Part shown: one piece after another, positions 14,051-53,682 of the stretch
How positions within the stretch are numbered: the first letter of the stretch is position 1
Layout of the letters: every line of letters starts with the position of its first letter
Source of the DNA: a virus
IMG/VR virus record: IMGVR_UViG_3300034407_002160
Location: 1 to 53,682 of that record
Length of the DNA: 53,682 bases
Direction: 5' to 3' (one strand)
Position numbers and translations under genes: made by a program
Notes under the pieces: model-generated
The model's database searches: none
Told to the model about the DNA's origin: nothing
The model's input: only the letters and a program-made list of their open reading frames with translations

Positions 14051-14059
14051 TTTTGTCTC

Positions 14060-15043: not shown

Positions 15044-15048
15044 TCATA

Positions 15049-16387: not shown

Positions 16388-16394
16388 ATATCTC

Positions 16395-16784: not shown

Positions 16785-16795
16785 AACTTATCTCC

Positions 16796-16840
16796 TTAAT
16801 TACAACAACCGCATTCGCAGTTATCTTGATAATTTTTCAT
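16796..16840 (-). CDS. 14-residue Cys-rich micropeptide
   Basis: ATG at 16840, preceded by TTGGAG with 7 bases spacing; encodes MKNYQDNCECGCCN and stops. Four Cys in seven residues (CECGCC) could bind metal. It fills the gap between the PorV-like gene and the coiled-coil gene almost exactly. Evidence is the good ribosome site, the operon position and the striking composition; it is too short for statistical support. Confidence 0.45.
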   Translation of the reverse strand: MKNYQDNCECGCCN

Positions 16841-16841
16841 A

Positions 16842-17762: not shown

Positions 17763-17832
17763 TAAGTTTCATCGTATAATATAATGCTGGTAACATCAGT
17801 GCTACTGCTAAAAAGAATTGTCCTTCATTCAT
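17716..17832 (-). CDS. Single-TM microprotein, 38 aa
   Basis: ATG at 17832 shares a base with the stop of the T9SS cargo gene (TAATG), and the frame overlaps the PorV-like 5' end by 47 bases. The product MNEGQFFLAVALMLPALYYT continues with a short amphipathic tail ending EEKREKK: one membrane helix, then charges. Likely translationally coupled. Role unknown. Confidence 0.5.
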   Translation of the reverse strand: MNEGQFFLAVALMLPALYYTMKLIVWFSEKMEEKREKK

Positions 17833-38197: not shown

Positions 38198-39379
38198 TTA
38201 GAAAAATTTATTTTCAATTGTTTCATTTTCACTTTTAACATTACTTAATCTTTTAAATAAAGGTTTGTACTTTTCAAATACATCTCTTGGTTTATCACTT
38301 TTTACCATATCATCAATAGACTGTAATAACTCATACATATCATTCGACAATATTTGTTTCTTAATATAATCGTGACTATAAACATAGTACTCAGCTTTCT
38401 CAATAGCTTCTTTAAATACCATAAAATTATGAAGTCGTATAGCCATAGTACATTGACCTTTCCATTCTACAGTATCATCCCAAGTTAATGCTTCTCTTAA
38501 ATATTCTCTATCAAACTCAGTAGTTACTGGTAGATGTTTGAATACTTGGTCTTTAAATGAATCATCATACTTAGGTACATTTATTGAACGAAATGCTGGT
38601 TTCTTAAAATCATAACTATGATAATAAGAACCAAAAACAACAGCTCTATCTGGTGATGAACTATCAGTAGTAACAATTATTTTTGAGTCAACTTCATTTA
38701 AAGATTTTTGTAATTGATTTAACATTAAGAAATCTTTAACTTTAGATATACCTAAAATATGAAAATATTTGTTTGTATCTTTTAGATGTTCTCCACCTTG
38801 TAATAATGACATTACACCTGACATAAAAGCAAATACATTTCTACCACCACCACCGACAGCCCAACCTTGAAATGGATAGTCTTTCATTTCATTATACCAG
38901 TTTATATATTCAAGGTCATTTGTACCCTGTACTACATTTAAAAAATCAGTATTACCAGATTGATTATCTGCAAAGTATTTAAAATTGTCTTTACTAATCT
39001 TTAAACACTCTTCATACATACCTTCGTATTTTATCTTAGGTGGAATATCTAAGTTCATTGCTATATCTGAATTGTGTTCTAACCATTTAAAGATTCTTTC
39101 ACGTATGGACATATCCCATTTGATAGCACCAGATGCAATTTGGTAACCACCTGAATCACCCATAACAAGATTTTTATCTGTTAATCCTAAATCATTTTTA
39201 TAGTCATCTTTTTTAAAATGATGTCCAGCTGTAATCAATATATCTGTATGTCTGTATTTTTCTGGAAACTCATCACTATAAAATCTTATAGATAAATCAT
39301 TTTTTAATTTAACATTCTTAGCTAATGAACTACCCATAGCACCTGCAGAGAATGATGGAAAGTATATAAATTTACTCAT
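38198..39379 (-). CDS. dpdA: DpdA-like DNA guanine transglycosylase
   Basis: 393 residues. Motifs of the tRNA-guanine transglycosylase superfamily are visible: LVMGDSGGYQIA (DSGG(F/Y)Q core), DFLNVVQGTND, QGWAVGGGGRNVF (glycine-rich strand) and IIVTTDSSSPDRAV with Asp near the expected nucleophile position. In phages DpdA swaps guanine in DNA for a 7-deazaguanine such as preQ0. The gene lies in one operon with folE, queD, queE and queC, which make preQ0. No queF is in the window, so preQ0 itself is the most likely base, though a reduced form cannot be ruled out. Confidence 0.85.
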   Translation of the reverse strand: MSKFIYFPSFSAGAMGSSLAKNVKLKNDLSIRFYSDEFPEKYRHTDILITAGHHFKKDDYKNDLGLTDKNLVMGDSGGYQIASGAIKWDMSIRERIFKWLEHNSDIAMNLDIPPKIKYEGMYEECLKISKDNFKYFADNQSGNTDFLNVVQGTNDLEYINWYNEMKDYPFQGWAVGGGGRNVFAFMSGVMSLLQGGEHLKDTNKYFHILGISKVKDFLMLNQLQKSLNEVDSKIIVTTDSSSPDRAVVFGSYYHSYDFKKPAFRSINVPKYDDSFKDQVFKHLPVTTEFDREYLREALTWDDTVEWKGQCTMAIRLHNFMVFKEAIEKAEYYVYSHDYIKKQILSNDMYELLQSIDDMVKSDKPRDVFEKYKPLFKRLSNVKSENETIENKFF

Positions 39380-39786
39380 TTTAAATAGTCCTGTATTTCT
39401 TGTGAGTTTTCAGTTTCCCAAGGATAAACAATCCATTTATCACCCTTTTCAACAACTGAAAAATCTGGTTTAACAATACTTTGTTCGTGTTCGTGAATTG
39501 TTACGTAAAAACTTTTTTCTGATAGAGAATGTTTTTTATATTTTTTTAATGTTTTACCTGTATCAGCTATATCATCTATAATCAGAGTATCTTGTGTAAC
39601 TTTTTCAAAACTCTCGATATAAGGTATACCTGTTTTGTGACTTAACATTACAGCTAGTATCACACCACCTCTTGGTATACCATAGATGTTATTAAATTCA
39701 ACACCTGCGTGTCTAATAGTCTCGATATAGTGTGATATATCATCTACGTATCTTTCTATAGCTTTCCAACTTACAAATTCTTTCAT
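39376..39786 (-). CDS. Phosphoribosyltransferase (type I PRTase fold)
   Basis: 136 residues. The PRPP-binding motif is TLIIDDIADTGKTL, and an upstream GIPRGGVILAVML loop matches XPRT/HPRT-type enzymes. The C-terminal KWIVYPWE is the usual hood end of small xanthine/guanine PRTases. It overlaps both neighbours (DpdA-like and FolE) by 4 bases, so it belongs to the modification operon. It may convert a purine or deazapurine base to nucleotide, or simply salvage guanine; substrate is not visible. Confidence 0.82.
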   Translation of the reverse strand: MKEFVSWKAIERYVDDISHYIETIRHAGVEFNNIYGIPRGGVILAVMLSHKTGIPYIESFEKVTQDTLIIDDIADTGKTLKKYKKHSLSEKSFYVTIHEHEQSIVKPDFSVVEKGDKWIVYPWETENSQEIQDYLK

Positions 39787-40412
39787 TTTAAATCCCTTAT
39801 AAAGTTATAAAATTCTTCTTTTGCTCTTGCAGTTTTTTTAAATGCCCCACTCAACTTAGATGTCTTCATAGTAGCATTGTGTTTGACACCACGAATAAAT
39901 GCACACATATGGTTAGCCTCTACCATCACAGCAGTACCAATATTTTGTTCACATACTCCATCTATATGACTGTGAATTTGCATTGTTAAGTTCTCTTGTA
40001 CTTGAGGTCGTCTAGCATAAAACTCAACAATACGATTTAACTTACTTAGTCCTATCACTTTACCCTCAGGTGTAGGTAGATAAGCTACGTGAGCATGTCC
40101 TGTAAAAGGTAAATGATGATGTGAACAAAATGAATGTAGTTTTATGTTACCTTGAAAAACCATACCATCATACCCATCAACATTATCAAATGCTGTAATC
40201 TTAGGAGGTTCATTATACACACCTGAAGCTAAGTCATTGACAAAAGCTTTAGTCACTCTCATCGGTGTGTCTGAAGAATTAGGGTCACTTTCCCAATCAA
40301 ATCCAAGAGCTGTCATATAACGACCGTAGTGTTTTGCAGCCTCGTTTATCATATTTAATTTTTCATCTACATTTAATGGTCTATTACCATTTGCATGTTT
40401 TAATTTATTCAT
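39783..40412 (-). CDS. folE: GTP cyclohydrolase I
   Basis: 209 residues with SFCSHHHLPFTGHAHVAYLP (zinc Cys/His) and VIGLSKLNRIVEFYARRPQVQE, the GTP-binding signature, followed by CAFIRGVKH. It makes 7,8-dihydroneopterin triphosphate, the first precursor of preQ0. It overlaps QueC by 8 bases. Together with QueD, QueE and QueC it gives a complete preQ0 pathway. Confidence 0.95.
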   Translation of the reverse strand: MNKLKHANGNRPLNVDEKLNMINEAAKHYGRYMTALGFDWESDPNSSDTPMRVTKAFVNDLASGVYNEPPKITAFDNVDGYDGMVFQGNIKLHSFCSHHHLPFTGHAHVAYLPTPEGKVIGLSKLNRIVEFYARRPQVQENLTMQIHSHIDGVCEQNIGTAVMVEANHMCAFIRGVKHNATMKTSKLSGAFKKTARAKEEFYNFIRDLK

Positions 40413-41130
40413 ATTCTATTGTGTCCTTAACTTTTAGTTTTTTGAAAGCTAACATCCTATCATTACACGCTCCACATTTACCACAAGACTTACCTGACTT
40501 AGATGGGTTATAGCAAGATAAACTATTTTTAAATATTGTTTCGTGATTTAAACCTAAGTTGTCACAACACTCAAGAGCATCTTTGACAATTAAATGTTTG
40601 TATCCATCTACATAAGGTAAGTAATAATTAATTTTATCTGATTCTACATTACCTTCTTTGAATGCACTTTCTAGTTTTTCAAAAAATATACGAGTAGAGT
40701 CTGGTGGTATAGTATGTTCACCGTCGTGTACACCTAATGCAATATCTACAGATACATTTTTTTCTTTTACTAATGATACTGCATAACCGTAAATCAAACT
40801 TGAAAATATAGCATTTCTATTTGGTACAAAATTTGATTTCATTTTAGTTTCATCAGTTTTACCTGTTGGAACATATATACCGTCACTTGTCAATGATGAA
40901 TTAAATTTACCCATAAAACTTGATAAGTTCATATAAGTGTGATGTATATTAAAGTTTTTTGATTTCAAATATTTTAAATTAGCTTCTAACTTAGTTAACT
41001 CTAATTGATTTTTTTGACCATAATAAAAACTAACTACGTGAACTCTATCATAATCTTTGTTTAATAGATGTACTAATAATGATGTAGAATCTAATCCACC
41101 ACTAATACTTAGCACTGCCTCTTTATTCAT
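40405..41130 (-). CDS. queC: 7-cyano-7-deazaguanine (preQ0) synthase QueC
   Basis: 241 residues from the ATG at 41130 (RBS GGAGTAAAG); an upstream ATG at 41160 lies inside the previous gene and is less likely. Motifs: PP-loop SISGGLDST near residue 9-17, FVPNRNAIF, and the C-terminal zinc ligands in SCYNPSKSGKSCGKCGACNDR. It converts CDG to preQ0 with ATP and ammonia. Confidence 0.95.
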   Translation of the reverse strand: MNKEAVLSISGGLDSTSLLVHLLNKDYDRVHVVSFYYGQKNQLELTKLEANLKYLKSKNFNIHHTYMNLSSFMGKFNSSLTSDGIYVPTGKTDETKMKSNFVPNRNAIFSSLIYGYAVSLVKEKNVSVDIALGVHDGEHTIPPDSTRIFFEKLESAFKEGNVESDKINYYLPYVDGYKHLIVKDALECCDNLGLNHETIFKNSLSCYNPSKSGKSCGKCGACNDRMLAFKKLKVKDTIEYE

Positions 41131-41344
41131 CTTTACTCCATTGTTTATAACCATATACATTCATACCTAATACAAATACACTTACTGCAATTTGTGGTAT
41201 TGCATTTATTAAATAACTGTAAACTAAAAATACTATGTTACCTAAACCCCAAACAATAAAACACATTTTATATTTTTGTGCGTTGAGATAATAACCTAAC
41301 ATAATTAATACAGTACCTAACCAACCTATTGTTTCAACAATCAC
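41123..41344 (-). CDS. Small membrane protein inside the preQ0 operon, 73 aa
   Basis: Three hydrophobic segments (IGWLGTVLIMLGYYLNAQ, CFIVWGLGNIVFLVYSYLI, PQIAVSVFVLGMNVYGYKQW). The last piece (MNVYGYKQW) resembles the end of PnuC-like nucleoside transporters, but the protein is only about a third of that length. It overlaps QueC by 8 bases and QueE by one, so it is tightly built into the operon. It could assemble as an oligomer and handle a base or nucleoside, which is speculation. Confidence 0.65.
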   Translation of the reverse strand: MIVETIGWLGTVLIMLGYYLNAQKYKMCFIVWGLGNIVFLVYSYLINAIPQIAVSVFVLGMNVYGYKQWSKDE

Positions 41345-42099
41345 TAAACACCTCTTTCATCTCCATAAGCTAATATGTGTAATCTGTCTGTAAAGTTATA
41401 ACCTTGTTGAGTACATATATCCATTAACCACTTACGTCTTTCATTCAACTGTTTACGTTCTAAACCTTCAGGCATCAACCATACTTTATTATTTGGTATG
41501 AACAATTTTTGTTGTAACATCTTCACTTCTTCTAAATCTTTTTCACTTGATATGACTGGTTTTAATTGATAGTCTGGATGAACATCAAGTAACATTGCCA
41601 TAGCATCGTAATTACAACGCCACTTTTCGTGTTTCTTTTTATCAGCCTCAGTAACTACTTTACCAGTGTAAGTCATTACAGTACCAGGTCTTGGAGTACT
41701 ATTCGATAACTTAGGTGATAATGAAATCATATCAGCTTCAGTATTTACATACTCACTACCCTCAGTTTCTATTGTTATGTAACTGTCATAGAGTTTACCT
41801 ATCTTACAAAGTTCTTGTAACATCTCAGCGTGTATTGTAGGACCTCCACCAGTAATCATAGTGTGTTTTATATGTGAGTGTTTTTGATAGAACTCATGCA
41901 CATCATCATATGTAAATCTACCTTTTTCAGGTTTCCAAGAGCTATATGGTGTATCACAAAACGAATCAGCAAACTGACAACGTAATCTACAACCACTTAC
42001 ACGAATCAAGATATGAGGTATTCCCATAAGTTTACCTTCACCTTGTAGGCAAGTATACATTTCATTTATAGGGAGTTTTTTATCTGACATATTCTGCAT
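41344..42099 (-). CDS. queE: 7-carboxy-7-deazaguanine synthase QueE (radical SAM)
   Basis: 251 residues. The radical-SAM cluster motif is SGCRLRCQFADSFCDTPYSSW: Cys spacing CX3CX6C rather than the common CX3CX2C, so the last spacing is enlarged. MITGGGPTIH and ITIETEGSEY follow, as in QueE. The start overlaps QueD by 20 bases. It converts CPH4 to CDG. Confidence 0.92.
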   Translation of the reverse strand: MQNMSDKKLPINEMYTCLQGEGKLMGIPHILIRVSGCRLRCQFADSFCDTPYSSWKPEKGRFTYDDVHEFYQKHSHIKHTMITGGGPTIHAEMLQELCKIGKLYDSYITIETEGSEYVNTEADMISLSPKLSNSTPRPGTVMTYTGKVVTEADKKKHEKWRCNYDAMAMLLDVHPDYQLKPVISSEKDLEEVKMLQQKLFIPNNKVWLMPEGLERKQLNERRKWLMDICTQQGYNFTDRLHILAYGDERGV

Positions 42100-42523
42100 G
42101 ATTGTTTTCGTGTTCCCAAACCTCTACTCGTGTAATCTCAACACGATTATTTGTTTTCTCTTTTATCATTGGATTTAATTTGTCATATAGATAACGACAG
42201 GACTCTTCAATACCAGGATAGTAACCATCATCAAGTACATTAAGATATATACCACCTTTACTTTCTAGTTCTTTTAAATCAGATAGTAAAGGGTCATCAG
42301 CAGCAATCAAGACTCTATGGTCCCACTCTGATTCAATCCACTTCTTAACATCTTTTAAGTCACCGAAGTCCATAACCCACCCTCGTTCATCAAGTTCTGA
42401 AGCTTCAAATGTTAAACGAACATATCTACCGTAACCGTGAACATAAGAGCAATGACCTTTATCTCGCCATTGTCTGTGACCTGTTGTGATAGGTCCAAAT
42501 CGTTTAGTTGATTTGAATTTCAT
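42080..42523 (-). CDS. queD: 6-carboxy-tetrahydropterin synthase QueD
   Basis: 147 residues. TTGHRQW supplies the first His, and CSYVHGYGRY contains the catalytic Cys with VHGY in place of VHGH, so the third zinc His is Tyr here. MDFGDLK, then WDHRVL and the C-terminal VEVWEHENN are conserved. It makes CPH4 from dihydroneopterin triphosphate. First gene of the modification operon, driven by the sigma-70-like promoter at 42561-42589. Confidence 0.9.
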   Translation of the reverse strand: MKFKSTKRFGPITTGHRQWRDKGHCSYVHGYGRYVRLTFEASELDERGWVMDFGDLKDVKKWIESEWDHRVLIAADDPLLSDLKELESKGGIYLNVLDDGYYPGIEESCRYLYDKLNPMIKEKTNNRVEITRVEVWEHENNHAEYVR

Positions 42524-43866: not shown

Positions 43867-44454
43867 CTACATGCAACACTTTTTGTGTTTTTTTCCACTA
43901 CCACAATAACAAGGGTCATTGCGACCTATTTTAGTTTCATTTTTAATTGTAGTTATAACTTGTCTGTCGTGTATAGTCATACCATTTAAATGGTCTATCT
44001 CATGCTGTATACAAACAGCTTCAAGTAATCTTAATTGAGTATCATTTTCATTTTTCTTACCTTCTTCCCAACTACCTTTACCGTCACTAGGATTTTCAAC
44101 ACCACTAAAGTACCAATTACTTTCTGCTTGTTCAGTTTTTATCTCAATGTTTTTATATCGTTTAGTGTGAATACCTTTACCTTTAAAAGATAAACAACCT
44201 TCGTAATAAGGTACTTCTTCTGAAGTTTTAATTACTTTAGGGTTTATTAATATTAAAGGTTCACGAACATTAACGACAGCAACACTAGCATCAATACCAA
44301 CCTGGTTAGCCGCAAGACCAATTCCGTCTTTTCTTTTATTAAGAATCCTGAATAACTCTTCCGCAATTTTAAGTCCTTCATCTACTGTAACCTCTTTTAA
44401 TTTTTTATTTATTACAGAGTTATGTTCTTTTAAACAGTTAATTATGTTTTTCAT
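43867..44454 (-). CDS. def: Peptide deformylase with C-terminal SEC-C zinc motif
   Basis: 195 residues. All three deformylase motifs are intact: GIGLAANQ (44-51), EGCLS (85-89) and QHEIDH (150-155). An insertion of about 30 residues (108-140) separates strands. The C-terminus (176-195) is a SEC-C motif: IGRNDPCYCGSGKKHKKCC, the zinc finger best known from SecA and other ribosome- or SecB-linked proteins. Phage deformylases are known from cyanophages and pelagiphages; the SEC-C extension is unusual. It removes the formyl group from nascent proteins, and SEC-C might recruit it to ribosomes. The gene lies beside the tmRNA. Confidence 0.92.
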   Translation of the reverse strand: MKNIINCLKEHNSVINKKLKEVTVDEGLKIAEELFRILNKRKDGIGLAANQVGIDASVAVVNVREPLILINPKVIKTSEEVPYYEGCLSFKGKGIHTKRYKNIEIKTEQAESNWYFSGVENPSDGKGSWEEGKKNENDTQLRLLEAVCIQHEIDHLNGMTIHDRQVITTIKNETKIGRNDPCYCGSGKKHKKCCM

Positions 44455-44722
44455 TGTTTAATGTAACCTTATAACCTTGTAGTGAATTACAACCAACACA
44501 CCATGTTGGTTTTATAGTTTTATGTTTTGGGTGTGATATCAAATGGTCTTCCATATAACTCCGTACCGCTAGTACATCAGCAGCGTTATACTCGTAAAGT
44601 AAATCACGAGTCACTCCATCATCACCACACTCTAAACATAAAGTTTTACTTTTTTTTGTAGTTTTACTTTTTAATGTGTAACTACCTTTTTTATTTTTTA
44701 CTAAGTTATCTTTGAAACCCAT
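44438..44722 (-). CDS. Zinc-ribbon protein, 94 aa
   Basis: Two CXXC pairs: CLECGDDG and CVGCNS, about 45 residues apart, typical of a zinc ribbon; basic N-terminus. The stop overlaps the deformylase start by 17 bases. Might bind nucleic acid or the ribosome; not recognised. Confidence 0.68.
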   Translation of the reverse strand: MGFKDNLVKNKKGSYTLKSKTTKKSKTLCLECGDDGVTRDLLYEYNAADVLAVRSYMEDHLISHPKHKTIKPTWCVGCNSLQGYKVTLNNEKHN

Positions 44723-44871
44723 TAAAATAAATCTTTCATATAATTTATTATTCGTGTATAATAAAACCCAATTGTTGTAATAAACACACCACCTGATATT
44801 AATAAACTAGGGTGTGAGTGTTCACCACAAAAACCTATTATGTGTTTAAAGAAATGTAAAATCTCATTCAT
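44722..44871 (-). CDS. Small membrane protein, 49 aa
   Basis: ATG at 44871, stop sharing a base with the 94-residue gene start (TAATG at both ends). Sequence has a hydrophobic core (SLLISGGVFITTIGFYY) after a His-rich head (HFFKHIIGFCGEHSH). Coupled translation supports it. Confidence 0.5.
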   Translation of the reverse strand: MNEILHFFKHIIGFCGEHSHPSLLISGGVFITTIGFYYTRIINYMKDLF

Positions 44872-44945
44872 TAAAACCTCATATTATTATCAGTCATTTT
44901 AATAGCTATATATCCTAATAAAAAAACTACAATTAATTCAAACAT
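44871..44945 (-). CDS. Membrane micropeptide, 24 aa
   Basis: ATG at 44945 immediately after the TAG of the zinc-ribbon gene, and TAATG link to the next frame. MFELIVVFLLGYIAIKM is a single membrane helix with a short polar tail. Too short for statistical support. Confidence 0.4.
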   Translation of the reverse strand: MFELIVVFLLGYIAIKMTDNNMRF

Positions 44946-45335
44946 CTATTTACCTACTTGATGATTTAAAAAATCTTTTTGTTTCTTGATAGCTTTTTTC
45001 AGAGCTTGTTTTTTCTCGTTATGTCTATCGATAAGTATTTGTTCTTTTGTCCTACGTTTCACTCTCCTCACTTTAGCTTTAGTTATTTTAGTAGGTGGTA
45101 AAGTACCTTTTAATTTAGGCATCTCTTTTCCTTTATGAAATACATTACCATCTGCATCAACAAACTCTTTCATAAAATGCCAACCTGCAGGACGACCTGT
45201 AGGTTTATATGCTTTTGTTTTTTCTTCTGGTAAACCAACAGCCATCAAGACACATAGTGAACAAATAACTTTTTCTGTACTGTCACCTATGTTTTCTACC
45301 CAACGACCACATTTACTACATTCTAGTGAACTCAT
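44946..45335 (-). CDS. Zinc-finger protein, 129 aa
   Basis: CSKCGRWVENI...VICSLCV forms a CXXC/CXXC ribbon at the N-terminus. The rest is basic, with helical segments rich in K and R (TKAKVRRVKRRTKEQ). Likely nucleic acid-binding; position between zinc-ribbon and deformylase genes suggests a translation-linked role, which is only inference. Confidence 0.65.
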   Translation of the reverse strand: MSSLECSKCGRWVENIGDSTEKVICSLCVLMAVGLPEEKTKAYKPTGRPAGWHFMKEFVDADGNVFHKGKEMPKLKGTLPPTKITKAKVRRVKRRTKEQILIDRHNEKKQALKKAIKKQKDFLNHQVGK

Positions 45336-45352
45336 AACTTTTCCTTTAGTAA

Positions 45353-45568
45353 TTATGCTTGACCTATTTGACCAGACTCAATACCCATTTTAAAGATAGT
45401 ATCTAGTATTTTAGATTCATTAACACTTGGTGTTTCGTGAAGTTGCAAGTCATCAGCAATTATAGCGTCAATTAAATCACTTATTAATTCTTGTTCTTGC
45501 TGAGTACTTTTTTTATCTAATTTATTTTCAATATATTCAAGCTTTGATATTATTTCTCTTATTGTCAT
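45353..45568 (-). CDS. Hypothetical acidic helical protein, 71 aa
   Basis: The longer frame starting at 45619 begins inside the tRNA-Cys gene; the ATG at 45568 (MTIREIISKLEYIENKL) is the realistic start. The product is helical and acidic, without Cys. Function unknown. Confidence 0.6.
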   Translation of the reverse strand: MTIREIISKLEYIENKLDKKSTQQEQELISDLIDAIIADDLQLHETPSVNESKILDTIFKMGIESGQIGQA

Positions 45569-45588
45569 CACAATCTTTCTTTTAGTTG

Positions 45589-45662
45589 AGTGCTGGACAG
45601 GATTCGAACCTGTGAACAATGGATTTGCAATCCACCCCGTTAAACCACTCCGGCACCAGCAC
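45589..45662 (-). tRNA. tRNA-Cys (GCA)
   Basis: Acceptor GTGCTGG/CCAGCAC, anticodon loop TTGCAAA (anticodon GCA), T-arm ACAGG TTCGAAT CCTGT, discriminator T, no encoded CCA. The 5' 23 bases overlap the last codons of the 117-residue SWIM-like gene. Confidence 0.9.
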
Positions 45663-45993
45663 GGCCTCTACTTGGCTGGAATGATTCACTAATTTGTGTA
45701 ATATGTCTACACTTACGTCTATAAGTATAACCTAAACAATTACAACTGTATAAACCGTTAAATTTTACTGTATATTTATTTACCTTGCCAGGTTTTTTTC
45801 TACTAGTTGATTCAACTGTCCAAGTTTTTAGTTTATATTTTTTTATTTTAGGTGTTGTATTTATCCAATTTAAATCAGTTAATTTAGTACCTTGAGGTAC
45901 AGATACCCAATTAGAACCACTAACAGCATAAGTACCACTACTTGTAGTTACAACTGTAGGGTTCCAAGAACCTTTTACTTTTATTTTACCCAT
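45640..45993 (-). CDS. SWIM-type zinc-finger protein, 117 aa
   Basis: The C-terminal half contains YSCNCLGYTYRRKCRHITQI, the CXCXnCXH pattern of SWIM zinc fingers, which bind DNA or protein and are common in recombination factors and nucleases. The N-terminal half is beta and T/S-rich. The last residues GRAGAGVV are encoded by the 5' part of tRNA-Cys, so the gene may have been extended by the tRNA. Confidence 0.65.
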   Translation of the reverse strand: MGKIKVKGSWNPTVVTTSSGTYAVSGSNWVSVPQGTKLTDLNWINTTPKIKKYKLKTWTVESTSRKKPGKVNKYTVKFNGLYSCNCLGYTYRRKCRHITQISESFQPSRGRAGAGVV

Positions 45994-46150
45994 ATAGTTT
46001 AAATAGTTTTGTTTCTATTATATTCTCACCATCATCAAATTCTTCATTCATATCATTAATAGCATGTTCCATAGCGGCGGTGTCTGATTCAACTTCTTTG
46101 TATAATTCTTCGTCAAAACCAGTAGTAAGTAAATCATCTACGTAACTCAT
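45986..46150 (-). CDS. Small acidic protein, 54 aa
   Basis: ATG at 46150 overlaps the previous stop (ATGA) and the stop overlaps the next ATG by 8 bases. The sequence MSYVDDLLTTGFDEELYKEV is acidic throughout. Coupling at both ends supports translation. Confidence 0.6.
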   Translation of the reverse strand: MSYVDDLLTTGFDEELYKEVESDTAAMEHAINDMNEEFDDGENIIETKLFKLYG

Positions 46151-46347
46151 ATTTTCTCCTTATCAAGATAATCACGTTCTAATTCATCCATCAGGTCTAA
46201 ACGAGATTCATCAGACATATAGGATGATTTAGTAGGTTGACCACCATATATCATATCTACAATCTTAATCCCATTAGTAACAGAACTCATTACATACTCC
46301 ACCTCAAGAGGAGCTAGTTTCATTTGTTTTTTATAAACATAAGTCAT
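46147..46347 (-). CDS. Hypothetical protein, 66 aa
   Basis: First gene after the 46373-46402 promoter. Starts MTYVYKKQMKLAPLEVEYVM; a central segment includes GIKIVDMIYGGQPTKSSYM and an acidic C-terminal helix. Not recognised. ATGA overlap with the 54-residue gene. Confidence 0.65.
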   Translation of the reverse strand: MTYVYKKQMKLAPLEVEYVMSSVTNGIKIVDMIYGGQPTKSSYMSDESRLDLMDELERDYLDKEKI

Positions 46348-46372
46348 ATTTTATTCCTTTAATTAACACCCT

Positions 46373-46402
46373 AATATAACACATAAAACCAATACGTGTC
46401 AA
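46373..46402 (-). promoter_or_regulatory. Sigma-70-like promoter before 66-aa gene
   Basis: TTGACA (46397-46402), then TTATAT at 46374-46379 with 17 bp spacing (or TATATT at 46373-46378 with 18). The -35 region overlaps the last codons of the 164-residue gene. Confidence 0.7.
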
Positions 46403-46893
46403 GCCTTATTTGCAATTTTTTTGTTAAATCTTTTATACATCTTGTTAAGAGCTAGTTTTTGTTTAGGACTTAGATTACCCCATCGATGAATTCTTTCTTC
46501 TATAGAATCTAAAAACTCTTCTGAACGCCATACATATGTATCGTGGTAATTAGCTTTATGTAACGCTTCACGAACCAAGTTTACTTTAGGTATTAGTCGT
46601 TCAATCTCTAAACGTTTCTTTTCAAGTTCTGCGAATGAATTTCTTTTAATTATATTGTGAATAGCTTGTAACATCTTTTTAGTTATCTTACGACCACTAA
46701 TAATAGCAACATACATACTAACTGTAAATTCATCTGCCTTTTTGGTCTCAACGAGAAACTTTAATTCTTTATATTCTTTATTGTAAGTTTTTTTATTGAA
46801 CTCTATTAGTTTCTTTGTCTCTTCGTGTTCTTTTAATATCTTAGGACTTATAGGTTTATTATTTAACAATGGATTTAATACTACTTTATTCAT
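46399..46893 (-). CDS. Hypothetical helical protein, 164 aa
   Basis: A charged, mainly helical protein (LKEHEETKKLIEFNKKTYNK, FAELEKKRLEIERLIPKVNL) with no motif I recognise. It has its own sigma-70-like promoter and overlaps the following promoter with its end. Possibly an early host-takeover protein, given that it is a single-gene unit. Confidence 0.65.
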   Translation of the reverse strand: MNKVVLNPLLNNKPISPKILKEHEETKKLIEFNKKTYNKEYKELKFLVETKKADEFTVSMYVAIISGRKITKKMLQAIHNIIKRNSFAELEKKRLEIERLIPKVNLVREALHKANYHDTYVWRSEEFLDSIEERIHRWGNLSPKQKLALNKMYKRFNKKIANKA

Positions 46894-46898
46894 ACTAG

Positions 46899-46927
46899 AA
46901 TATACAAAATAATATAATACAGGTCAA
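46899..46927 (-). promoter_or_regulatory. Sigma-70-like promoter before 164-aa gene
   Basis: TTGACC (46922-46927), 17 bp, TATATT (46899-46904). The -35 lies over the stop region of the 227-residue gene. Confidence 0.7.
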
Positions 46928-47607
46928 GCTTTTTCTTCCTTATTTTTTGGATACACTTTTAGTGTCTTAACCTCTTCATCAGAAAACTTATCAAAGTATG
47001 ATGTCTTCAGTAGTTTTCTATGAGCTTTGTTTAAATCATCTCTACCAGCTATATTGATTAAAAAATAAGGTGAACCTTTTCTTGTTTCTTCACCAGCTGC
47101 AGTATGATGTTCAAAAGGTGAAAAACACAAAGCTTTTATATCTTTATAACCGTGTTCTTTCATTAAGCTTTGAATTGTTTTTTGATATTTTTTTCTATCA
47201 ACTTCTTCCCAAAGTATACCCTCTGTATTCATACATATAATTAATGCTGATGAGAAATTACTATCTTTAAACTTTTTTAAAATTTCTACAAAGGATGTTT
47301 CATTAGGATACCATATCTCAAACATCAACTCATCCTTTTCACGTTCTGCTTTTACAAACGGACATACAGGCATACCACCGAAGTTTTCATTTGGTTTCTC
47401 TAAATATTCAGTTATCCATTCTTTAACTTCTGTTAACGGTTTGTTATTATATTTACGTTTGATTTCTTCAGGTGTCCCACCTAATGTTTCACAAAACTTA
47501 TCATAAGAACCATTATCGATTCTTTCTTGTTTAAGTTCTTCAATTTCTTCAGAACTCATTCTAGCTATAACTTCTTTATACCATAATAAGGTATCGTATT
47601 CTTTCAC
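46924..47607 (-). CDS. Hypothetical protein, 227 aa
   Basis: No family recognised. It contains FGGMPVCPFVKAEREKDELM and FSSALIICMNTEGILWEE, then FSPFEHHTAAGEETRKG and SPYFLINIA; the conserved Cys, His and Gly pieces could be an enzyme core. ATG at 47607 overlaps the previous stop by 4 bases. A metabolic or redox enzyme is possible. Confidence 0.6.
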   Translation of the reverse strand: MKEYDTLLWYKEVIARMSSEEIEELKQERIDNGSYDKFCETLGGTPEEIKRKYNNKPLTEVKEWITEYLEKPNENFGGMPVCPFVKAEREKDELMFEIWYPNETSFVEILKKFKDSNFSSALIICMNTEGILWEEVDRKKYQKTIQSLMKEHGYKDIKALCFSPFEHHTAAGEETRKGSPYFLINIAGRDDLNKAHRKLLKTSYFDKFSDEEVKTLKVYPKNKEEKA

Positions 47608-48062
47608 CCTCTTAATCCTTTTTTAATTAAATCTTTTCTCTTTTTTCTTTCCATCCACTTTTCCCATAAATGCCACTTGAACCAACCTGTAACTTTACCC
47701 ACTACATTCTGTATTGGTTTAAGTACTTTGGTTAATATATCATCAACCTTTTCTTGTGGTGTTTCATCATACTCATCTAAGAAACTCCAGTCTAAATTAT
47801 CTGGTATAATGATATCACCCTTTTGGTGTTGAAGTAATCTTACCTCTTGACCATCAACATCAATAACTACTTCATATTTATCTTCAAAATGATGTGAGTG
47901 GTATTGGAATGCATTATCTTTTTGTTCTTGAATCTTCTGTGTTTCTTTCTCTAACACTCTTGATTCCCAACCATTATAATAATCCATAACACTATTAATT
48001 ATTAAGATTGGTAGTGCTAGAGTTATAGTAAGTTTCTTCCAGTACTCTGTTATTTTTTTCAT
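47604..48062 (-). CDS. Membrane-anchored protein, 152 aa
   Basis: One N-terminal hydrophobic helix (LTITLALPILIINSVMDYY) followed by a charged, soluble part (DKYEVVIDVDGQEVRLLQHQKG; VDDILTKVLKPIQNVVGK) and a basic C-terminus. First gene after the strong 48130-48159 promoter. Function unknown. Confidence 0.62.
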   Translation of the reverse strand: MKKITEYWKKLTITLALPILIINSVMDYYNGWESRVLEKETQKIQEQKDNAFQYHSHHFEDKYEVVIDVDGQEVRLLQHQKGDIIIPDNLDWSFLDEYDETPQEKVDDILTKVLKPIQNVVGKVTGWFKWHLWEKWMERKKRKDLIKKGLRG

Positions 48063-48129
48063 TTATTTAAGCGTCTATCGTAGTAAATATTTTGATACAA
48101 CTATATAATTTCCCAATTTGATATGACAG

Positions 48130-48159
48130 AATATACGAAATAAAACCTATACTTGTCAA
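48130..48159 (-). promoter_or_regulatory. Sigma-70-like promoter before 152-aa gene
   Basis: TTGACA (48154-48159), 18 bp, TATATT (48130-48135). The 105-bp gap 48063-48167 contains no gene. Confidence 0.7.
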
Positions 48160-48167
48160 GTGTTTTT

Positions 48168-48701
48168 TTATAATAATTCAATAATTTTTTGTACGGTATT
48201 ATCATCCGTTTTGATTGTATGATAATCTATATTATTATCATCTAATGTTTTGATACAATGTTTATCTATTTTGATTGAATCCTCTAAGTTCTGAAATCTC
48301 TCAGCGTCATTATGATTTGTTTCTGGTCGTTCCAACATTACATTTATATTATCATAATTGTTATGTAAATCTATTACCATTTGATTAAAGGCTTCTGAAT
48401 AGAACTCGGCTGGATAACCTTCACTATACCACGTCTTATATATTAATGAGAATAAGACTGGTGAATCTACAACAATGTAATCAACCTTACCATAACTTTC
48501 CGCTATACCTCTGTGTTGATTAGCACATACATAGAGTTGGTCTTTTATAGCTGGTAGATTATTATCCCAAGCTAGTCTTTTTGGAAACTCGTATGGATTA
48601 TTACAACTTATATGTTTTCTTTTGAGTTCGTAAAAAACTCCCGCGGCTATGGAGGACTTTCCAATACCAGGCCCTCCAAATAAATTTATTAATTTACTCA
48701 T
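48168..48701 (-). CDS. P-loop kinase/ATPase-like protein, 177 aa
   Basis: Start at 48701 (MSKLINLFGGPG) overlaps the previous stop (ATGA); an upstream start at 48734 adds 11 residues inside that gene. GGPGIGKSSIA is Walker A, DYIVVDSPVLF is a Walker B-like strand, and RPETNHNDAERFQNL is a lid-like segment with Arg. The fold resembles small nucleoside or NadR-type kinases. Substrate unknown. Confidence 0.72.
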   Translation of the reverse strand: MSKLINLFGGPGIGKSSIAAGVFYELKRKHISCNNPYEFPKRLAWDNNLPAIKDQLYVCANQHRGIAESYGKVDYIVVDSPVLFSLIYKTWYSEGYPAEFYSEAFNQMVIDLHNNYDNINVMLERPETNHNDAERFQNLEDSIKIDKHCIKTLDDNNIDYHTIKTDDNTVQKIIELL

Positions 48702-48916
48702 AGTGATTGATATAAACTGAATAAATAACCACAAAATCCTACTATGTTAAGTAAGGATAAATTATATTGTTTGGTTTTTTGAGTTTGAATAGTAAGTAGA
48801 GCTAAACCAATTAACATCCCTATCTTTCCTATATGTGAATTTATAAAGTAAGGTGATAACATCATAATGGCTGTACCAAGATATATCACTCCATATTTAT
48901 ATAATTTTTCGTTCAT
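48698..48916 (-). CDS. Small membrane protein, 72 aa
   Basis: Two or three hydrophobic segments (YGVIYLGTAIMMLSPYFIN, GMLIGLALLTIQTQ, LSLLNIVGFCGYLFSLYQSL). In size and position beside a kinase-like gene it recalls small PnuC-like transporters paired with NadR-like kinases, but the family call is weak. RBS GGAGTATAAA. Confidence 0.6.
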   Translation of the reverse strand: MNEKLYKYGVIYLGTAIMMLSPYFINSHIGKIGMLIGLALLTIQTQKTKQYNLSLLNIVGFCGYLFSLYQSL

Positions 48917-48927
48917 TTTATACTCCG

Positions 48928-48953
48928 TAAAAAGGGGGGAAATTAATCCCCCC
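48928..48953 (-). terminator. Intrinsic terminator after TonB-dependent receptor gene
   Basis: GGGGGG (48934-48939) and CCCCCC (48948-48953) form a perfect GC stem with loop AAATTAAT, followed on the minus strand by TTTTT. It isolates the receptor gene from the downstream genes. Confidence 0.9.
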
Positions 48954-48964
48954 TAAAATTACTT

Positions 48965-51682
48965 TTAGAAATTAACAGTCAACCCAATGTTAGCATAACG
49001 TGGTGTTCCTAAGAATACCTCAGCGTTATGTGGTAGGTGAAGTTTATCACCGTATCCATTATACTGTGAGTTGTCAACTGCATCTTGTACATAAACTGCA
49101 TCGAGTGCGTTGAATACGTGACCCGTTAGTGTCATATCGTATCCTGCAATCTTAGGTAGTTTATAAGAAGCATGTAAGTCTAAACGATTATATCCTGGAG
49201 CTTGCCATACTTGAGTTCTATCTGCATCACCAGAAAGTTCACGTGAGTCTGGACTCCAATCTGCGTAGTTCTTATCATACATCTTAAAGATACCTTGCAA
49301 TCTAAGACCATCCATCGGTGTAAGTGTTGTGCCTAAGACATAAGCTGTCTGTGGTTGGTCACCTACATATAATCCATCAAGTGTGTATGTGTAAGGTGTT
49401 TGTACTGGTGCATCTTCAGCATACTCTGTATAAAGACCATCTGCATCACCATCAAACTTCCACTTACCAAATGATACTGCTCCGTCTAAACGAATCATAT
49501 CATTTAACTTCATTGAACCTTCGATTTCAAGACCTTGGTGTTTTTGACCGATACCTTTTAAGAATATCACATCAGTATCACCTGAGTCACCTTGTCCAGT
49601 AGTTACAGCTTTTGTAAGGTTTCTATCTTTCCAATCTGTATTGTAAGCACTTACTTTAACTGCTACATTCTCAGTAGAGAAATTAATACCAGCCTCTGAA
49701 CTAATGAATGATTCATTAGATGGGTCTGATGCAACTGTACCATCATAGTAGATTACGTTATCCATAATCGGTGGTTTCTCAACGTATCCTGTGTTAGCAA
49801 ATACACTAACGTTATCATCCACGTCATACATAGCTCCACCCTTAACTTGGAAAGTCGAGATAGCGTCTGCTTTAACTACTTCGTTAGCTACTGTAAAGTG
49901 GTCTTGGTAAGAATACTTGATACTTGATAATCCACCCATACCATATAGGTTAATCTTATCTTTAGTATATTTACCTTGTAAGAATCCACCAATCCAATCA
50001 ACTGTGGTACTATTATGATATGCGATGATATCACCTAGTCCCTTCATTTTACTTTCGTTAGTTGTGTTATTCTTATTAGATGAGTTAACAAAGTAATCTC
50101 CACCTAATAAATCACGAACTTCACGAGCGTGTTCTATACCAGCAGTTCTCCAATCTAAACCAACTTGAACTTCAAGTTCGTCTGATACGTTATAGTTTAA
50201 TTTAGAAATCAAACCGTAAGTATCTTGTCTATTGATTGAGTTACGAAGAATACCTTTTGAACGATTCTGAGTTGCATGGTAATCAGTATCTACGTTATTG
50301 GAGTTAGCTGCAATAGCACCATTCCAATCCCAAGTCCACGGGGAACTTCTATACCACTTTTCACCATCTACAGCAGGAGTTCTGAAAGAACTACCATAAG
50401 TTCCTGTACCACCACCTGAACCACCACTCCAATAAAGAACTGAACTCAAACGAGTTTTTTCATTTATTGTCATAAAGTGATTTAGATTAACCAATGGTTT
50501 ATGAAAGAAGTTTTCTCTTTCATTTAGGAAGTTAGAGTTATATCTAGCAGTTGTTCTTGCTCCATACATATACCAATACTGTTTACCTGTATAGTCTGAA
50601 CTAACGGGTGCCCAATTTTGACTAAATGTACGACCAGCTTCTGTTTCGAATTTATTACCCTCTGCAAATGCATCAGTATCATATCCGTCAATACTACCTG
50701 CTAACTCTTGTGAGTAAGTAGCAATATTCTGTTTGTATAGATTCTGTCCGTGACGTTGTGGAGCTCCGATTGCATATAATTCAAATCTGTTCTTTTTATT
50801 TAATTGATATGAACTACCTAAATACCAAGCCCAAGCGTCTGTCCAGTTTCCATCAATAATACCATCACCAGTCTTACGAACTAACGTTCCACTAAGTGCT
50901 AGTTTATCACCAATCAAACCTGTATTGTAATTAACAGTAGTTTTAAGAAAACCACCAGCACCACCTTCTTGTTTGAACTTTCCACCTTTTGTCATTGCCG
51001 CAGGGTCGGTGATTATGTTCATGGTTCCACCAATTGATGGTGTAGCTAAGTTAACAGCACTTAAACCACGTTGCATCTGAATTGATTGAGCTGCATCTGC
51101 AACACCATCCCAATTAGACCAATATACCCAACCATTCTCCATATCATTTTGGGGAACACCGTTAATCATTACAGCCACATTACGTTGGTTAAATCCACGA
51201 ACATTGATACGAGCATCACCCGCACCACCACCTTGTTGAGTTGCATATACTGTTGGTGTAGTGTTTAGAGCCATTGGAATATCTTGACTACCAAGACGAA
51301 TTTCCATATCCTCTTTACTAACCGTTGTGTAAGCAACAGGTGTTTTTTCATCTGCCCTTGAAGCTAAAACCTCAAGTGCCGACATTGTAAGAGCATCAAT
51401 TGCCAAAGCAAAATCAACCTTTACATCTTCTCCACCCATAACAACCTCTTGAGATTGAGATGAGTAACCAATGAATGTAACTGTAACAGTATAAGTACCA
51501 GAATCAAGTTTAATAGAGTAGAAGCCACTTTCATCGGCTACTGCTCCCAAGTCTGTTCCATTTACTACTACATTTGCTCCACTCAAAGGATTTGTGTCGG
51601 CATCAGTTACGAGTCCAGTTATAGATTGTGCAAACAATCCACTAACCATCATAAGTGATACCATTAGATTACGTATATTCAT
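48965..51682 (-). CDS. TonB-dependent outer-membrane receptor with CarboxypepD-regulatory-like N-domain
   Basis: 905 residues with a signal peptide (NIRNLMVSLMMVSGLFAQ). Residues 21-105 are a carboxypeptidase-regulatory-like sandwich (GLVTDADTNPLSGANVVVN, GFYSIKLDSGTYTVTVTFIG). The plug follows (DIPMALNTTPTVYATQQGGG, DARINVRGFNQRNVAVMING, GGTMNIITDP), then a long barrel ending YANIGLTVNF with terminal Phe. This is the architecture of FCB-group nutrient receptors (iron chelates, vitamins, glycans). It looks intact and has its own RBS (GGGAG) and terminator. Sampled GC is about 42 percent, well above core phage genes, so it was probably acquired from a host. Its ligand is not visible. Confidence 0.93.
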   Translation of the reverse strand: MNIRNLMVSLMMVSGLFAQSITGLVTDADTNPLSGANVVVNGTDLGAVADESGFYSIKLDSGTYTVTVTFIGYSSQSQEVVMGGEDVKVDFALAIDALTMSALEVLASRADEKTPVAYTTVSKEDMEIRLGSQDIPMALNTTPTVYATQQGGGAGDARINVRGFNQRNVAVMINGVPQNDMENGWVYWSNWDGVADAAQSIQMQRGLSAVNLATPSIGGTMNIITDPAAMTKGGKFKQEGGAGGFLKTTVNYNTGLIGDKLALSGTLVRKTGDGIIDGNWTDAWAWYLGSSYQLNKKNRFELYAIGAPQRHGQNLYKQNIATYSQELAGSIDGYDTDAFAEGNKFETEAGRTFSQNWAPVSSDYTGKQYWYMYGARTTARYNSNFLNERENFFHKPLVNLNHFMTINEKTRLSSVLYWSGGSGGGTGTYGSSFRTPAVDGEKWYRSSPWTWDWNGAIAANSNNVDTDYHATQNRSKGILRNSINRQDTYGLISKLNYNVSDELEVQVGLDWRTAGIEHAREVRDLLGGDYFVNSSNKNNTTNESKMKGLGDIIAYHNSTTVDWIGGFLQGKYTKDKINLYGMGGLSSIKYSYQDHFTVANEVVKADAISTFQVKGGAMYDVDDNVSVFANTGYVEKPPIMDNVIYYDGTVASDPSNESFISSEAGINFSTENVAVKVSAYNTDWKDRNLTKAVTTGQGDSGDTDVIFLKGIGQKHQGLEIEGSMKLNDMIRLDGAVSFGKWKFDGDADGLYTEYAEDAPVQTPYTYTLDGLYVGDQPQTAYVLGTTLTPMDGLRLQGIFKMYDKNYADWSPDSRELSGDADRTQVWQAPGYNRLDLHASYKLPKIAGYDMTLTGHVFNALDAVYVQDAVDNSQYNGYGDKLHLPHNAEVFLGTPRYANIGLTVNF

Positions 51683-51710
51683 TTACGTTCTCCCTTGTTT
51701 TTTATTTAAA

Positions 51711-51734
51711 GACACATTTTTATTCAGGTGTGTC
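51711..51734 (-). terminator. Weak hairpin after the DUF4407-like gene
   Basis: GACACA (51711-51716) pairs with TGTGTC (51729-51734) with a 12-base loop, and T-rich sequence follows on the minus strand. It lies in the 79-bp gap between the DUF4407-like gene and the receptor and could reduce read-through. Confidence 0.4.
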
Positions 51735-51761
51735 GACTGCCTGTTTGAGGTATGCGAAATT

Positions 51762-52604
51762 TTATCGACCAACCCTACCACCTTTACCTATCGAAGAATC
51801 AATTTTTTGTTCTATGATTGGTAGGTCATCTGGGTTTGGTACTATATCTTCTTTTATTAAATCTAATTTTTTTGCAATCTTTGGTAAAACTTTTATTGTA
51901 TCACCATCATCCTCTAGTACTCTATTATAAGCTATAACTAAAGCAATTGCCATCGGGTCGAATACGAATATAAGAATGAATATAAAAAACTTTACAATTG
52001 TATCTACGTCTGTATCGAATACCTTAGCCAAATAAATAGCGGGTCCCACATCAACACCTGTCTCTACCAACTCAACCTTTAAATCACCTATCTCACCTTT
52101 GAGTGTCATCATATCGGTATTGATTTGATTTATCTTTGGTTGATACTCTTCTCTTAATTGTCTTTTTGCTGTTCTATAATTGTCTGGTAGTTCTGCGACT
52201 GCAGCTTCTAATTCTTCTTTCAAAAATCCTTTATCTTCAGTAAGTTGTTCTAACCTATCCTCTTTATATAATAAAGCTGTAGATTGTTTTTCAAAGTTAA
52301 CAGTTGCACCTTGATATGCATTTGATAAATAACCAAATATACCAGCAGATGTTATACCAACTAAAGTAACAACACCAACTGTCATATAGATTTTTAATAA
52401 CTTATTTATTTTATTCCAGTAACGATATAAAAAAGATGCTCCGACTAGTTTACCAAACTCAAGTGAACCAGCCATAATAATTACAGATAAAGCTGCACCT
52501 GAAAATAATTTTGATAAGCCAAATACACTAAAGAATGCAGCACTCCCTGCAATCAGAAGAGCAGACAAACCAACATATGTTTTAAAGTTTTTTACTCGTT
52601 CCAT
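51762..52604 (-). CDS. DUF4407-like four-TM membrane protein with coiled coil
   Basis: 280 residues: three N-terminal membrane segments (YVGLSALLIAGSAAFFSVF, ALSVIIMAGSLEFGKLVG, YMTVGVVTLVGITSAGIFG), a periplasmic or cytoplasmic coiled coil (residues ~100-190), and a last hydrophobic segment (FFIFILIFVFDPMAIALVIAYN). The FDPMAIALVIAYN end is one I have seen in marine T4-like phages. Membrane function in infection is unknown. Confidence 0.7.
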   Translation of the reverse strand: MERVKNFKTYVGLSALLIAGSAAFFSVFGLSKLFSGAALSVIIMAGSLEFGKLVGASFLYRYWNKINKLLKIYMTVGVVTLVGITSAGIFGYLSNAYQGATVNFEKQSTALLYKEDRLEQLTEDKGFLKEELEAAVAELPDNYRTAKRQLREEYQPKINQINTDMMTLKGEIGDLKVELVETGVDVGPAIYLAKVFDTDVDTIVKFFIFILIFVFDPMAIALVIAYNRVLEDDGDTIKVLPKIAKKLDLIKEDIVPNPDDLPIIEQKIDSSIGKGGRVGR

Positions 52605-52608
52605 GCCT

Positions 52609-52617
52609 ATAAATATA
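52609..52617 (-). promoter_or_regulatory. Late-type element TATATTTAT before DUF4407-like gene
   Basis: Exact 9-mer only 5 bases before the ATG at 52604. If it is a -10 element, the transcript would be nearly leaderless. Confidence 0.4.
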
Positions 52618-52628
52618 ATATATATTGC

Positions 52629-52835
52629 TTAAACTGTACTATCATTTTGCTCTATATCGATAAACTCTGCGTTGATAATTTTCATACATAAGTAGAATTT
52701 ATCACCGTTCCGCAGAACGGTATCAGCTAAGTGATACTGATTTTTTAATTCTTCAGTAGATTTGTTTGTAACCTTTTGAGCTAATACCGTTCCACAGATA
52801 ACATACCTATCATCATTTACATTGATGATTTTCAA
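52629..52835 (-). CDS. Hypothetical protein, 68 aa
   Basis: Begins MKIINVNDDRYVICGTVLAQKV and is a small mixed alpha/beta protein with an acidic tail. It follows Hsp20 by 2 bases, probably in one transcript. Not recognised. Confidence 0.65.
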   Translation of the reverse strand: MKIINVNDDRYVICGTVLAQKVTNKSTEELKNQYHLADTVLRNGDKFYLCMKIINAEFIDIEQNDSTV

Positions 52836-52837
52836 GA

Positions 52838-53311
52838 CTATCCAATCTTAACAGTATGTTTTTTCGGTTTCTCTGGTTCGATTTTAGGGACATCAACAGA
52901 TAAAATTCCATCTTTGAAATTAGCTTTGATATTCTCACCATCTAATAAATCACCTAATTCAAATTGACGTTTGAATGATGATTGTTTTAATTCTCTACGA
53001 AGAACCTTAGCACCGTCATCATTGAATGCACTATGCTTATCTCCTGAGATAGTTAAAACACCTTCTTCAACTGATACTTCCAATTGCTTTTTATCCAAGC
53101 CAGGAATCTCAGCAATGATACCAACCTTATCATCATACTCATATACATTAACCTTTGGATAAGCAGAACCTTGCATTGGATTTACTCCAACGGATTTTGT
53201 TATCTCTGGATAATGTTGTGAGACCATTTGGTCAAATATTTTATCGAACGGTGTTAGAAAGTCATCCCTATTGATAAAAGGGATATTGCGATTAAAAACA
53301 ACTTTAGTCAT
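52838..53311 (-). CDS. Small heat-shock protein (Hsp20 family)
   Basis: 157 residues with an alpha-crystallin domain at ~50-145: PKVNVYEYDDKVGIIAEIPGL, LEVSVEEGVLTISGDK, FKRQFELGDLLDGENIKANFKDGILSVDVPK; the GILSVDVPK strand matches the family. Common in T4-like marine phages. It prevents aggregation of unfolded proteins during infection. Start ATG has RBS AAGGAG. Confidence 0.93.
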   Translation of the reverse strand: MTKVVFNRNIPFINRDDFLTPFDKIFDQMVSQHYPEITKSVGVNPMQGSAYPKVNVYEYDDKVGIIAEIPGLDKKQLEVSVEEGVLTISGDKHSAFNDDGAKVLRRELKQSSFKRQFELGDLLDGENIKANFKDGILSVDVPKIEPEKPKKHTVKIG

Positions 53312-53416
53312 TGTATTTCTCCTTGTTTACTTTTAGTCAAACTGAGATAGATTCTTACGACATCTAATCTCTTTACATTATCGACCTCACTTGAGCGTCG
53401 AATTTTTATTACAATA

Positions 53417-53425
53417 ATAAATATA
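53417..53425 (-). promoter_or_regulatory. Late-type element TATATTTAT in hsp20 leader
   Basis: Exact 9-mer, 105 bases before the hsp20 ATG, overlapping one arm of the inverted repeat at 53423-53485. Confidence 0.45.
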
Positions 53426-53485
53426 AGGGATACTCATTTTTAAGTTGTTTATATCGTGAGAACTAAAAATTGTTGTATCCCTTAT
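53423..53485. other. Long inverted repeat, extended stem-loop
   Basis: ATAAGGGATAC (53423-53433) pairs perfectly with GTATCCCTTAT (53475-53485). Inside, ATTTTTAAGTT pairs with AACTAAAAAT with one bulge, giving one long stem-loop with a 14-base apex. It lies upstream of hsp20 in the 272-bp gap 53312-53583, which contains no gene. Confidence 0.6.
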
Positions 53486-53544
53486 TTAAAGGTTTTGGAA
53501 ATTTAAATTGTCAAAAAACTATTATCTCATTTAAGAGACATAAA

Positions 53545-53553
53545 ATAAATATA
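53545..53553 (-). promoter_or_regulatory. Late-type element TATATTTAT upstream of hsp20
   Basis: Second exact copy in this gap, 31 bases beyond the 3' end of the partial gene. Confidence 0.4.
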
Positions 53554-53583
53554 ACTAAATATCTCAAAGTGGATTTTATTTTC

Positions 53584-53682
53584 CTAATCAAAAATATTGA
53601 TTGCGTCACCTAATTGATTAATCAATAAAGTTATTGAAACTCCTAAAGCAGAACCATAACCGAAGTATAACCATTTGTTTTC
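53584..53682 (-). CDS. Membrane protein, C-terminal part (runs off window)
   Basis: Only the last 32 residues are inside: ENKWLYFGYGSALGVSITLL and a short end INQLGDAINIFD, then TAG. One hydrophobic segment is visible. Nothing further can be said. Confidence 0.55.
   Translation of the reverse strand, partial: ENKWLYFGYGSALGVSITLLINQLGDAINIFD

Follow-up and report, generated by a model that had tools for sequence, protein, structure and literature searches.

A pseudoknot-led TonB-dependent receptor gene in marine T4-like phages and its possible role in nucleic-acid uptake

The window analysed here, a linear IMG/VR contig of 53,682 nucleotides, carries an intact gene for a TonB-dependent receptor (TBDR) that has many relatives in other phages. 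Our best explanation, held tentatively, is that the receptor is a host-derived accessory (auxiliary metabolic) gene of marine T4-like phages that imports nucleic-acid breakdown products under the control of an RNA pseudoknot. As far as sequence can speak for such a role, the points that argue for it are the intact receptor, purifying selection, a single origin, a position within the replication block in most relatives, and a dedicated pseudoknot. Derived from a host and preserved intact in genomes that bear phage hallmark genes, the receptor gene fits the definition of an auxiliary metabolic gene, its metabolic effect here being predicted.

The receptor gene and its surroundings

The initial annotation had described a complete TonB-dependent receptor in a phage genome, with a ribosome-binding site and terminator of its own, and each of these elements was confirmed (Table 1). 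The reading frame runs from ATG to TAA without a frameshift and begins with the signal peptide MNIRNLMVSLMMVSGLFAQ (assigned by inspection). Its regulatory domain and plug, the latter preceded by a conserved LEVLASR stretch that is a candidate TonB box, are followed by a beta barrel (PF00593, 2.2e-19, above the family cut-off), and the protein ends in ...LTVNF, the terminal Phe being common to 127 of 132 homologues. Plug, barrel, signal and C-terminal aromatic residue together place the protein among the TonB-dependent transporters, with transport itself predicted. The AlphaFold model (mean pLDDT 70, pTM 0.67), in which the plug is poorly resolved, also predicts a large C-terminal beta barrel. 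In fold searches this model matched the solved TBDRs FhuA, Fiu, FecA, PqqU and BtuB; the matches were chiefly to siderophore receptors, and comparison with the PDB, whether by sequence or by fold, was uninformative as to the substrate.

Table 1. Features at and around the receptor gene, in window coordinates
Feature	Position	Strand	Basis
TonB-dependent receptor gene, intact, 905 aa	48965..51682	(-)	ORF, Pfam domains, AlphaFold model, fold matches
CarboxypepD-regulatory-like domain codons (residues 21-101)	51380..51622	(-)	CarbopepD_reg_2, PF13715, 5.4e-18
Plug domain codons (residues 112-220)	51023..51349	(-)	PF07715, 1.7e-14, above cut-off
Ribosome-binding site AAGGGAG, just 5' of the receptor ATG	51690..51696	(-)	sequence
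Intrinsic terminator 3' of the receptor gene, GGGGGGATTAATTTCCCCCC + TTTTT	48935..48953	(-)	sequence
Phage-specific H-type pseudoknot leader, 45 nt modelled	51705..51749	(-)	97 distinct viral sequences, compensatory changes
Pseudoknot helix P1 (outermost pair unformed in the window copy)	51740-51744 pairs 51724-51728	(-)	
Pseudoknot helix P2	51729-51734 pairs 51711-51716	(-)	
c37, 72-aa small membrane-like protein after the receptor, window and several relatives	48698..48916	(-)	no Pfam family
c63, P-loop, thymidylate-kinase-like protein	48168..48701	(-)	PHROG 2107 'thymidylate kinase' 7.5e-12; PF13521 1.9e-9
c110, 280-aa membrane-like protein directly upstream of the receptor	51762..52604	(-)	no family found

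A shift in base composition had also been reported, and the gene is indeed richer in GC than its surroundings, although the values are 38.3% for the gene and 31.4% elsewhere in the window, not the 42 and 22-33 percent first given. The receptor recurs, preceded by the upstream gene seen in the window, in the diverged contigs L009 (88%) and L012 (85%; both best-segment identities) and in the near-identical contig L002, which makes an assembly error unlikely. We rejected an assembly chimera or a decayed gene on the basis of the intact reading frame, the independent diverged contigs and purifying selection on the receptor (dN/dS 0.09-0.27).

Since the window encodes tail-fibre, baseplate-wedge, SbcC-like and primase proteins, we regard it as a fragment of a T4-like myovirus. 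The receptor is displaced here relative to its usual position between a ribonucleotide reductase and the DNA polymerase: in this partial genome it does not adjoin a reductase, and c110 takes the place of that gene upstream, as it does in L002, L009 and L012. A small-heat-shock-like gene is likewise upstream in those c110 loci whose contig reaches far enough. On the other side, c63 accompanies the receptor and c37. Both small genes also follow the receptor within the reductase-polymerase slot of L018, L020, L021 and L024, and thus the three have probably moved as a unit.

Elsewhere in the window we noted several further features, all on the minus strand. Positions 13445-20663 encode a series of proteins whose starts resemble secretion signals; several of them may be envelope proteins that the phage exports. 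Within this run, a 943-aa protein has weak cohesin-domain and T9SS C-terminal sorting matches (PF18962 2.5e-4, below cut-off), and two proteins are CsgG-like by eye, with no Pfam or PHROG match. Genes judged by eye to be folE, queC, queE, queD and DpdA/Tgt-like lie at 38198-42523 and probably serve 7-deazaguanine DNA modification; the DpdA-like protein has a weak match only, to a PHROG of unassigned function. A 73-aa protein (41123-41344) matches the C-terminal third of PF04973, the nicotinamide-mononucleotide transporter family (7.5e-6, slightly below cut-off), and would be a partial PnuC-like protein. Lastly, a tRNA gene is found at 45589-45662 (Rfam RF00005, 64 bits).

Distribution, origin and RNA leader

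That a phage should encode a TBDR had been called remarkable, but the gene is far from singular: our IMG/VR scan recovered at least 318 stretches encoding relatives of the receptor, and a TBDR had already been reported in the phage Mar_Mega_1. The viral loci studied are the best 80 of the 318, and remoter viral copies may behave otherwise. In receptor-bearing records 130 kb long, the T4 major capsid gene gp23 is present as well. Among GenBank phage records, all matches were distant (24-30%), and several lay on short human-gut contigs.

The usual viral order is gp32, UvsX, RNase H, gp41 helicase, class II ribonucleotide reductase, receptor, DNA polymerase, clamp and clamp loader, where the labels gp32, RNase H and clamp were read from sequence without a family-library test. 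The class II (B12-dependent) reductase is present in 75 of 81 viral loci, usually directly upstream of the receptor with the DNA polymerase downstream, and its score of 348.8 against TIGR02505 (curated cut-off 340) identifies it as adenosylcobalamin-dependent. As for the six loci without it, the contigs of L014 and L043 end at the receptor, and in the window, L002, L009 and L012 the receptor lies elsewhere. The receptor is missing from roughly half of the phage loci that have the reductase, which implies that it is dispensable. Its phage neighbours include thymidylate synthase (L059-L061 and L077) and glutamine-synthetase genes and, in the window, the thymidylate-kinase-like c63. The reductase-polymerase slot can also hold the glutamine synthetase GlnII, either by itself or preceded by the receptor (L144, L146, L183, L184, L196, L200-L202, L205, L212, L215 and L217), and may for this reason be a simple insertion hotspot.

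Phylogenetic analysis of 132 receptors grouped the viral copies, together with two mis-binned phage contigs, in a single clade (support 100) that is nested within receptors of Neomarinimicrobiota (SAR406). The phylogeny thereby supplies a donor for the capture from a host that the initial annotation had proposed, and the simplest reading of a single nested clade is one old capture followed by descent with the phages. Phages carrying the receptor probably infect Neomarinimicrobiota. Presence of the receptor on the reductase tree requires 8 changes, 2 of them forced by well-supported branches, so losses or exchanges of the gene are also probable. Viral and cellular receptors show near-fixed differences at only 4 positions, which suggests that the function is probably unaltered. 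One short contig of a Neomarinimicrobiota MAG, L083, is placed within the viral clade on a long branch. The two mis-binned contigs, L082 (NZWA01000089.1) and L130 (PBHZ01000014.1), were assigned to Flavobacteriales and Euryarchaeota MAGs; their phage gene order and pseudoknot mark them as binning errors in public genomes.

Every viral leader examined has the form ACAGG-CAGNN-GACACA-CCTGT-NNAAAAA-TGTGTC. We aligned 97 distinct sequences, gathered with a search pattern in which some of the sequence is fixed but pairing is not imposed, and found that 98.1% of pair cells are standard, compared with 18-56% when the pairing is slid. Helix P2 is paired in 100% of cases. Changes on both sides were observed in 6 of the 11 pairs, in both helices, and amount to 70 cells, where shuffling gives a mean of 13. 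A pattern scan blind to the receptor returned at least 120 viral stretches with the pseudoknot; among the 80 matches listed, the receptor was next in all 75 with enough downstream DNA, and the reductase was upstream in 72 of 79. The covariance model R1 matched the window copy at 2.1e-14, the window sequence being among its inputs, and gave one strong match apiece in 17 of 18 phage records, many of which had contributed sequences to the model. G019 yielded no strong match; at the locus retrieved from it, the reductase is present and the receptor absent. The other two matches in phage records were weak (E = 0.03 and 0.08).

Outside phages, the pattern was not found in the loci of cellular receptor homologues except for the mis-binned L082 and L130, and the covariance model gave a single weak match, antisense to an apparent coding sequence, in 199 Neomarinimicrobiota genomes. 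On these grounds we rejected inheritance of the pseudoknot from the host. No Rfam family matched either: the best, PreQ1, scored 13 bits against a gathering score of 39 (E = 1.9), and we rejected known Rfam riboswitches and leaders, PreQ1 included. A shared origin with the gp32 leaders of the receptor phages was not supported, since we saw no matching element there by eye and the model, run on whole records, found none outside the receptor leader apart from the two weak matches. Taken together, these sequence comparisons indicate that the pseudoknot is a conserved, dedicated phage-specific RNA, previously uncatalogued in Rfam.

Candidate substrates and functions

We propose that during infection the receptor would be synthesised and exported, and that the TonB system of the host would supply its energy. 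The receptor would then import extracellular nucleic-acid breakdown products, either oligonucleotides or nucleotides, that could be salvaged for phage DNA synthesis together with the phage reductase and other nucleotide-supply genes. The pseudoknot, being just 5' of the ribosome-binding site, may control translation of the receptor through a ligand or a protein. That nucleic-acid breakdown products are the favoured substrate follows from the gene neighbourhood of the homologues and from the nucleotide-supply neighbours in phages.

Among the best Bacteroidota homologues, a gene for a secreted lamin-tail-domain (LTD) protein lies directly upstream in 16 of 18 (L394-L396 and L398-L410), and in 13 of 18 a secreted nuclease, either Endonuclease I or of the PLD type, is encoded no more than three genes downstream (it is absent in L396, L399 and L405). 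All ten of the lamin-tail/nuclease-locus proteins scanned in Bacteroidota carry T9SS tails, and the locus is possibly an uncharacterised system for extracellular-DNA utilisation. Reciprocal searches returned the phage-type receptor as best match in six of six Neomarinimicrobiota genomes, and in nine Neomarinimicrobiota loci an S1/P1 nuclease is 1.8-6.0 kb from the receptor. A transformation screen in Riemerella names an outer-membrane protein with a carboxypeptidase-regulatory domain, at most a candidate member of this family, as needed for transformation (PMC8459023). Bacteroidota copies score far under the Neomarinimicrobiota ones (about 450-625 vs some 1700 bits); nuclease neighbours are missing for L393, the nearest of the Bacteroidota copies, and for the copy from Opitutales, and neither a lamin-tail protein nor a secreted nuclease was found adjoining the phage receptor.

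Because the phage reductase needs adenosylcobalamin, import of cobalamin (vitamin B12) as the cofactor of this adjoining enzyme suggested itself first. The enzyme passes its family cut-off and stands directly upstream in most viral loci, and the predicted receptor fold matches BtuB, among many other TBDRs. However, exactly one cobalamin riboswitch is present in 27 of 32 Neomarinimicrobiota genomes, and it adjoins a different receptor-like gene, which is about 20-26% identical in its N-terminal part only, where matched, and which has a plug or regulatory domain in four of five cases checked. No cobalamin riboswitch was found near the loci of nine cellular receptor homologues or in positions 44000-53682 of the window, and many phage loci have the same reductase without the receptor. 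The separate riboswitch-linked receptor of SAR406 hosts thus weakens the case for B12, which we now think unlikely; this receptor, the nuclease-linked homologues and the nucleotide-supply neighbours lead us to rank nucleic-acid uptake first and B12 second.

Similarly doubtful is import of another limiting nutrient (an iron complex, glycan, peptide or other vitamin), the reductase slot being merely tolerant. TBDRs carry many ligands, the fold matches are mainly to siderophore receptors, and the slot also takes glutamine synthetase. Against this, the reciprocal-best homologues are nuclease-linked. SusC/RagA identity was rejected with a TIGR04056 score of 60.8 bits, far below the cut-off of 368.25, and no adjoining SusD-like gene was recognised.

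A role in phage-host interaction, in which the receptor replaces or competes with the host receptor of rival phages or ties up TonB and so limits superinfection, appears improbable. TBDRs are common phage receptors, and the hosts carry an orthologue of this very one. Yet the whole plug and barrel are under purifying selection with so few near-fixed viral differences, as for a working transporter, and the gene lies in the replication block, away from tail or immunity genes. Of the three roles initially suggested, nutrient import is therefore best supported by the position among replication and nucleotide genes and by the nuclease-linked homologues, whereas we found no support for receptor replacement or for an effect on superinfection. 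Lastly, although the window is a linear fragment and the gene has a higher GC content, it is scarcely credible that the receptor is an assembly chimera or a functionless passing passenger, given that hundreds of contigs carry it in intact form, that its gene order is conserved, and that it is under purifying selection and has an RNA leader of its own.

Returning to nucleic-acid uptake, one could speculate, with little confidence, that the pseudoknot senses replication demand by way of a nucleotide or of a protein of the phage (its single-strand binding protein, for example), and would switch on an importer that scavenges extracellular DNA for phage genomes. An importer kept across an ocean phage lineage with an RNA leader would let infected cells alter their uptake from seawater, and if the substrate is nucleic acid, dissolved ocean DNA would directly feed virus production. 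The pseudoknot itself is a compact, strongly conserved RNA outside Rfam that is open to in vitro testing, and the LTD-TBDR-nuclease locus is a lead toward a DNA-uptake receptor in Bacteroidota.

Relation to known systems

The marine megaphage Mar_Mega_1 encodes a SusC-like TBDR that was proposed to raise nutrient uptake (PMC9723777), so a TBDR coded by a marine phage is common to both cases. In a viral structure library, only one of the strong matches to our receptor was named as a TBDR, at 12% identity, and its name suggests that it is the Mar_Mega_1 protein. Linkage to a reductase or to an RNA leader is, by contrast, established only for the present lineage. In the literature searched, whose coverage was limited, we did not find a lineage-wide, reductase-linked, pseudoknot-led phage receptor, nor any publication joining Marinimicrobia, phage and TonB-dependent transport, subscription literature being little covered. 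A phage TBDR as such is already known, and the lineage-wide form with reductase and pseudoknot is new as far as this literature goes.

The closest cellular clade comprises the TBDR orthologues of Neomarinimicrobiota (e.g. L086 and L101), which belong to the same family, share the domain order and are about 60-68% identical to the window protein. They differ in being chromosomal, in having SRAP, S1/P1 nuclease or primase genes as neighbours, depending on the genome, and in having no pseudoknot leader. The Bacteroidota LTD/TBDR/secreted-nuclease receptor is a reciprocal best homologue with the same domain architecture, but L403 is only ~39-45% identical to the Neomarinimicrobiota copies over the aligned part, and the phage gene lacks the nuclease and lamin-tail partners. 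BtuB shares the predicted TBDR fold with the phage receptor; the riboswitch-linked receptor of the hosts, however, is of a different family, and no cobalamin riboswitch lies near the genes tested.

For the leader, the nearest parallel is the translational operator of T4 gene 32, in which an H-type pseudoknot and then an A-rich stretch precede the ribosome-binding site. The receptor leader likewise consists of an H-type pseudoknot and an A-rich stretch before the ribosome-binding site; it differs in that the gp32 leaders of these phages show no match to it by eye and the model places the pseudoknot, two weak matches apart, at the receptor.
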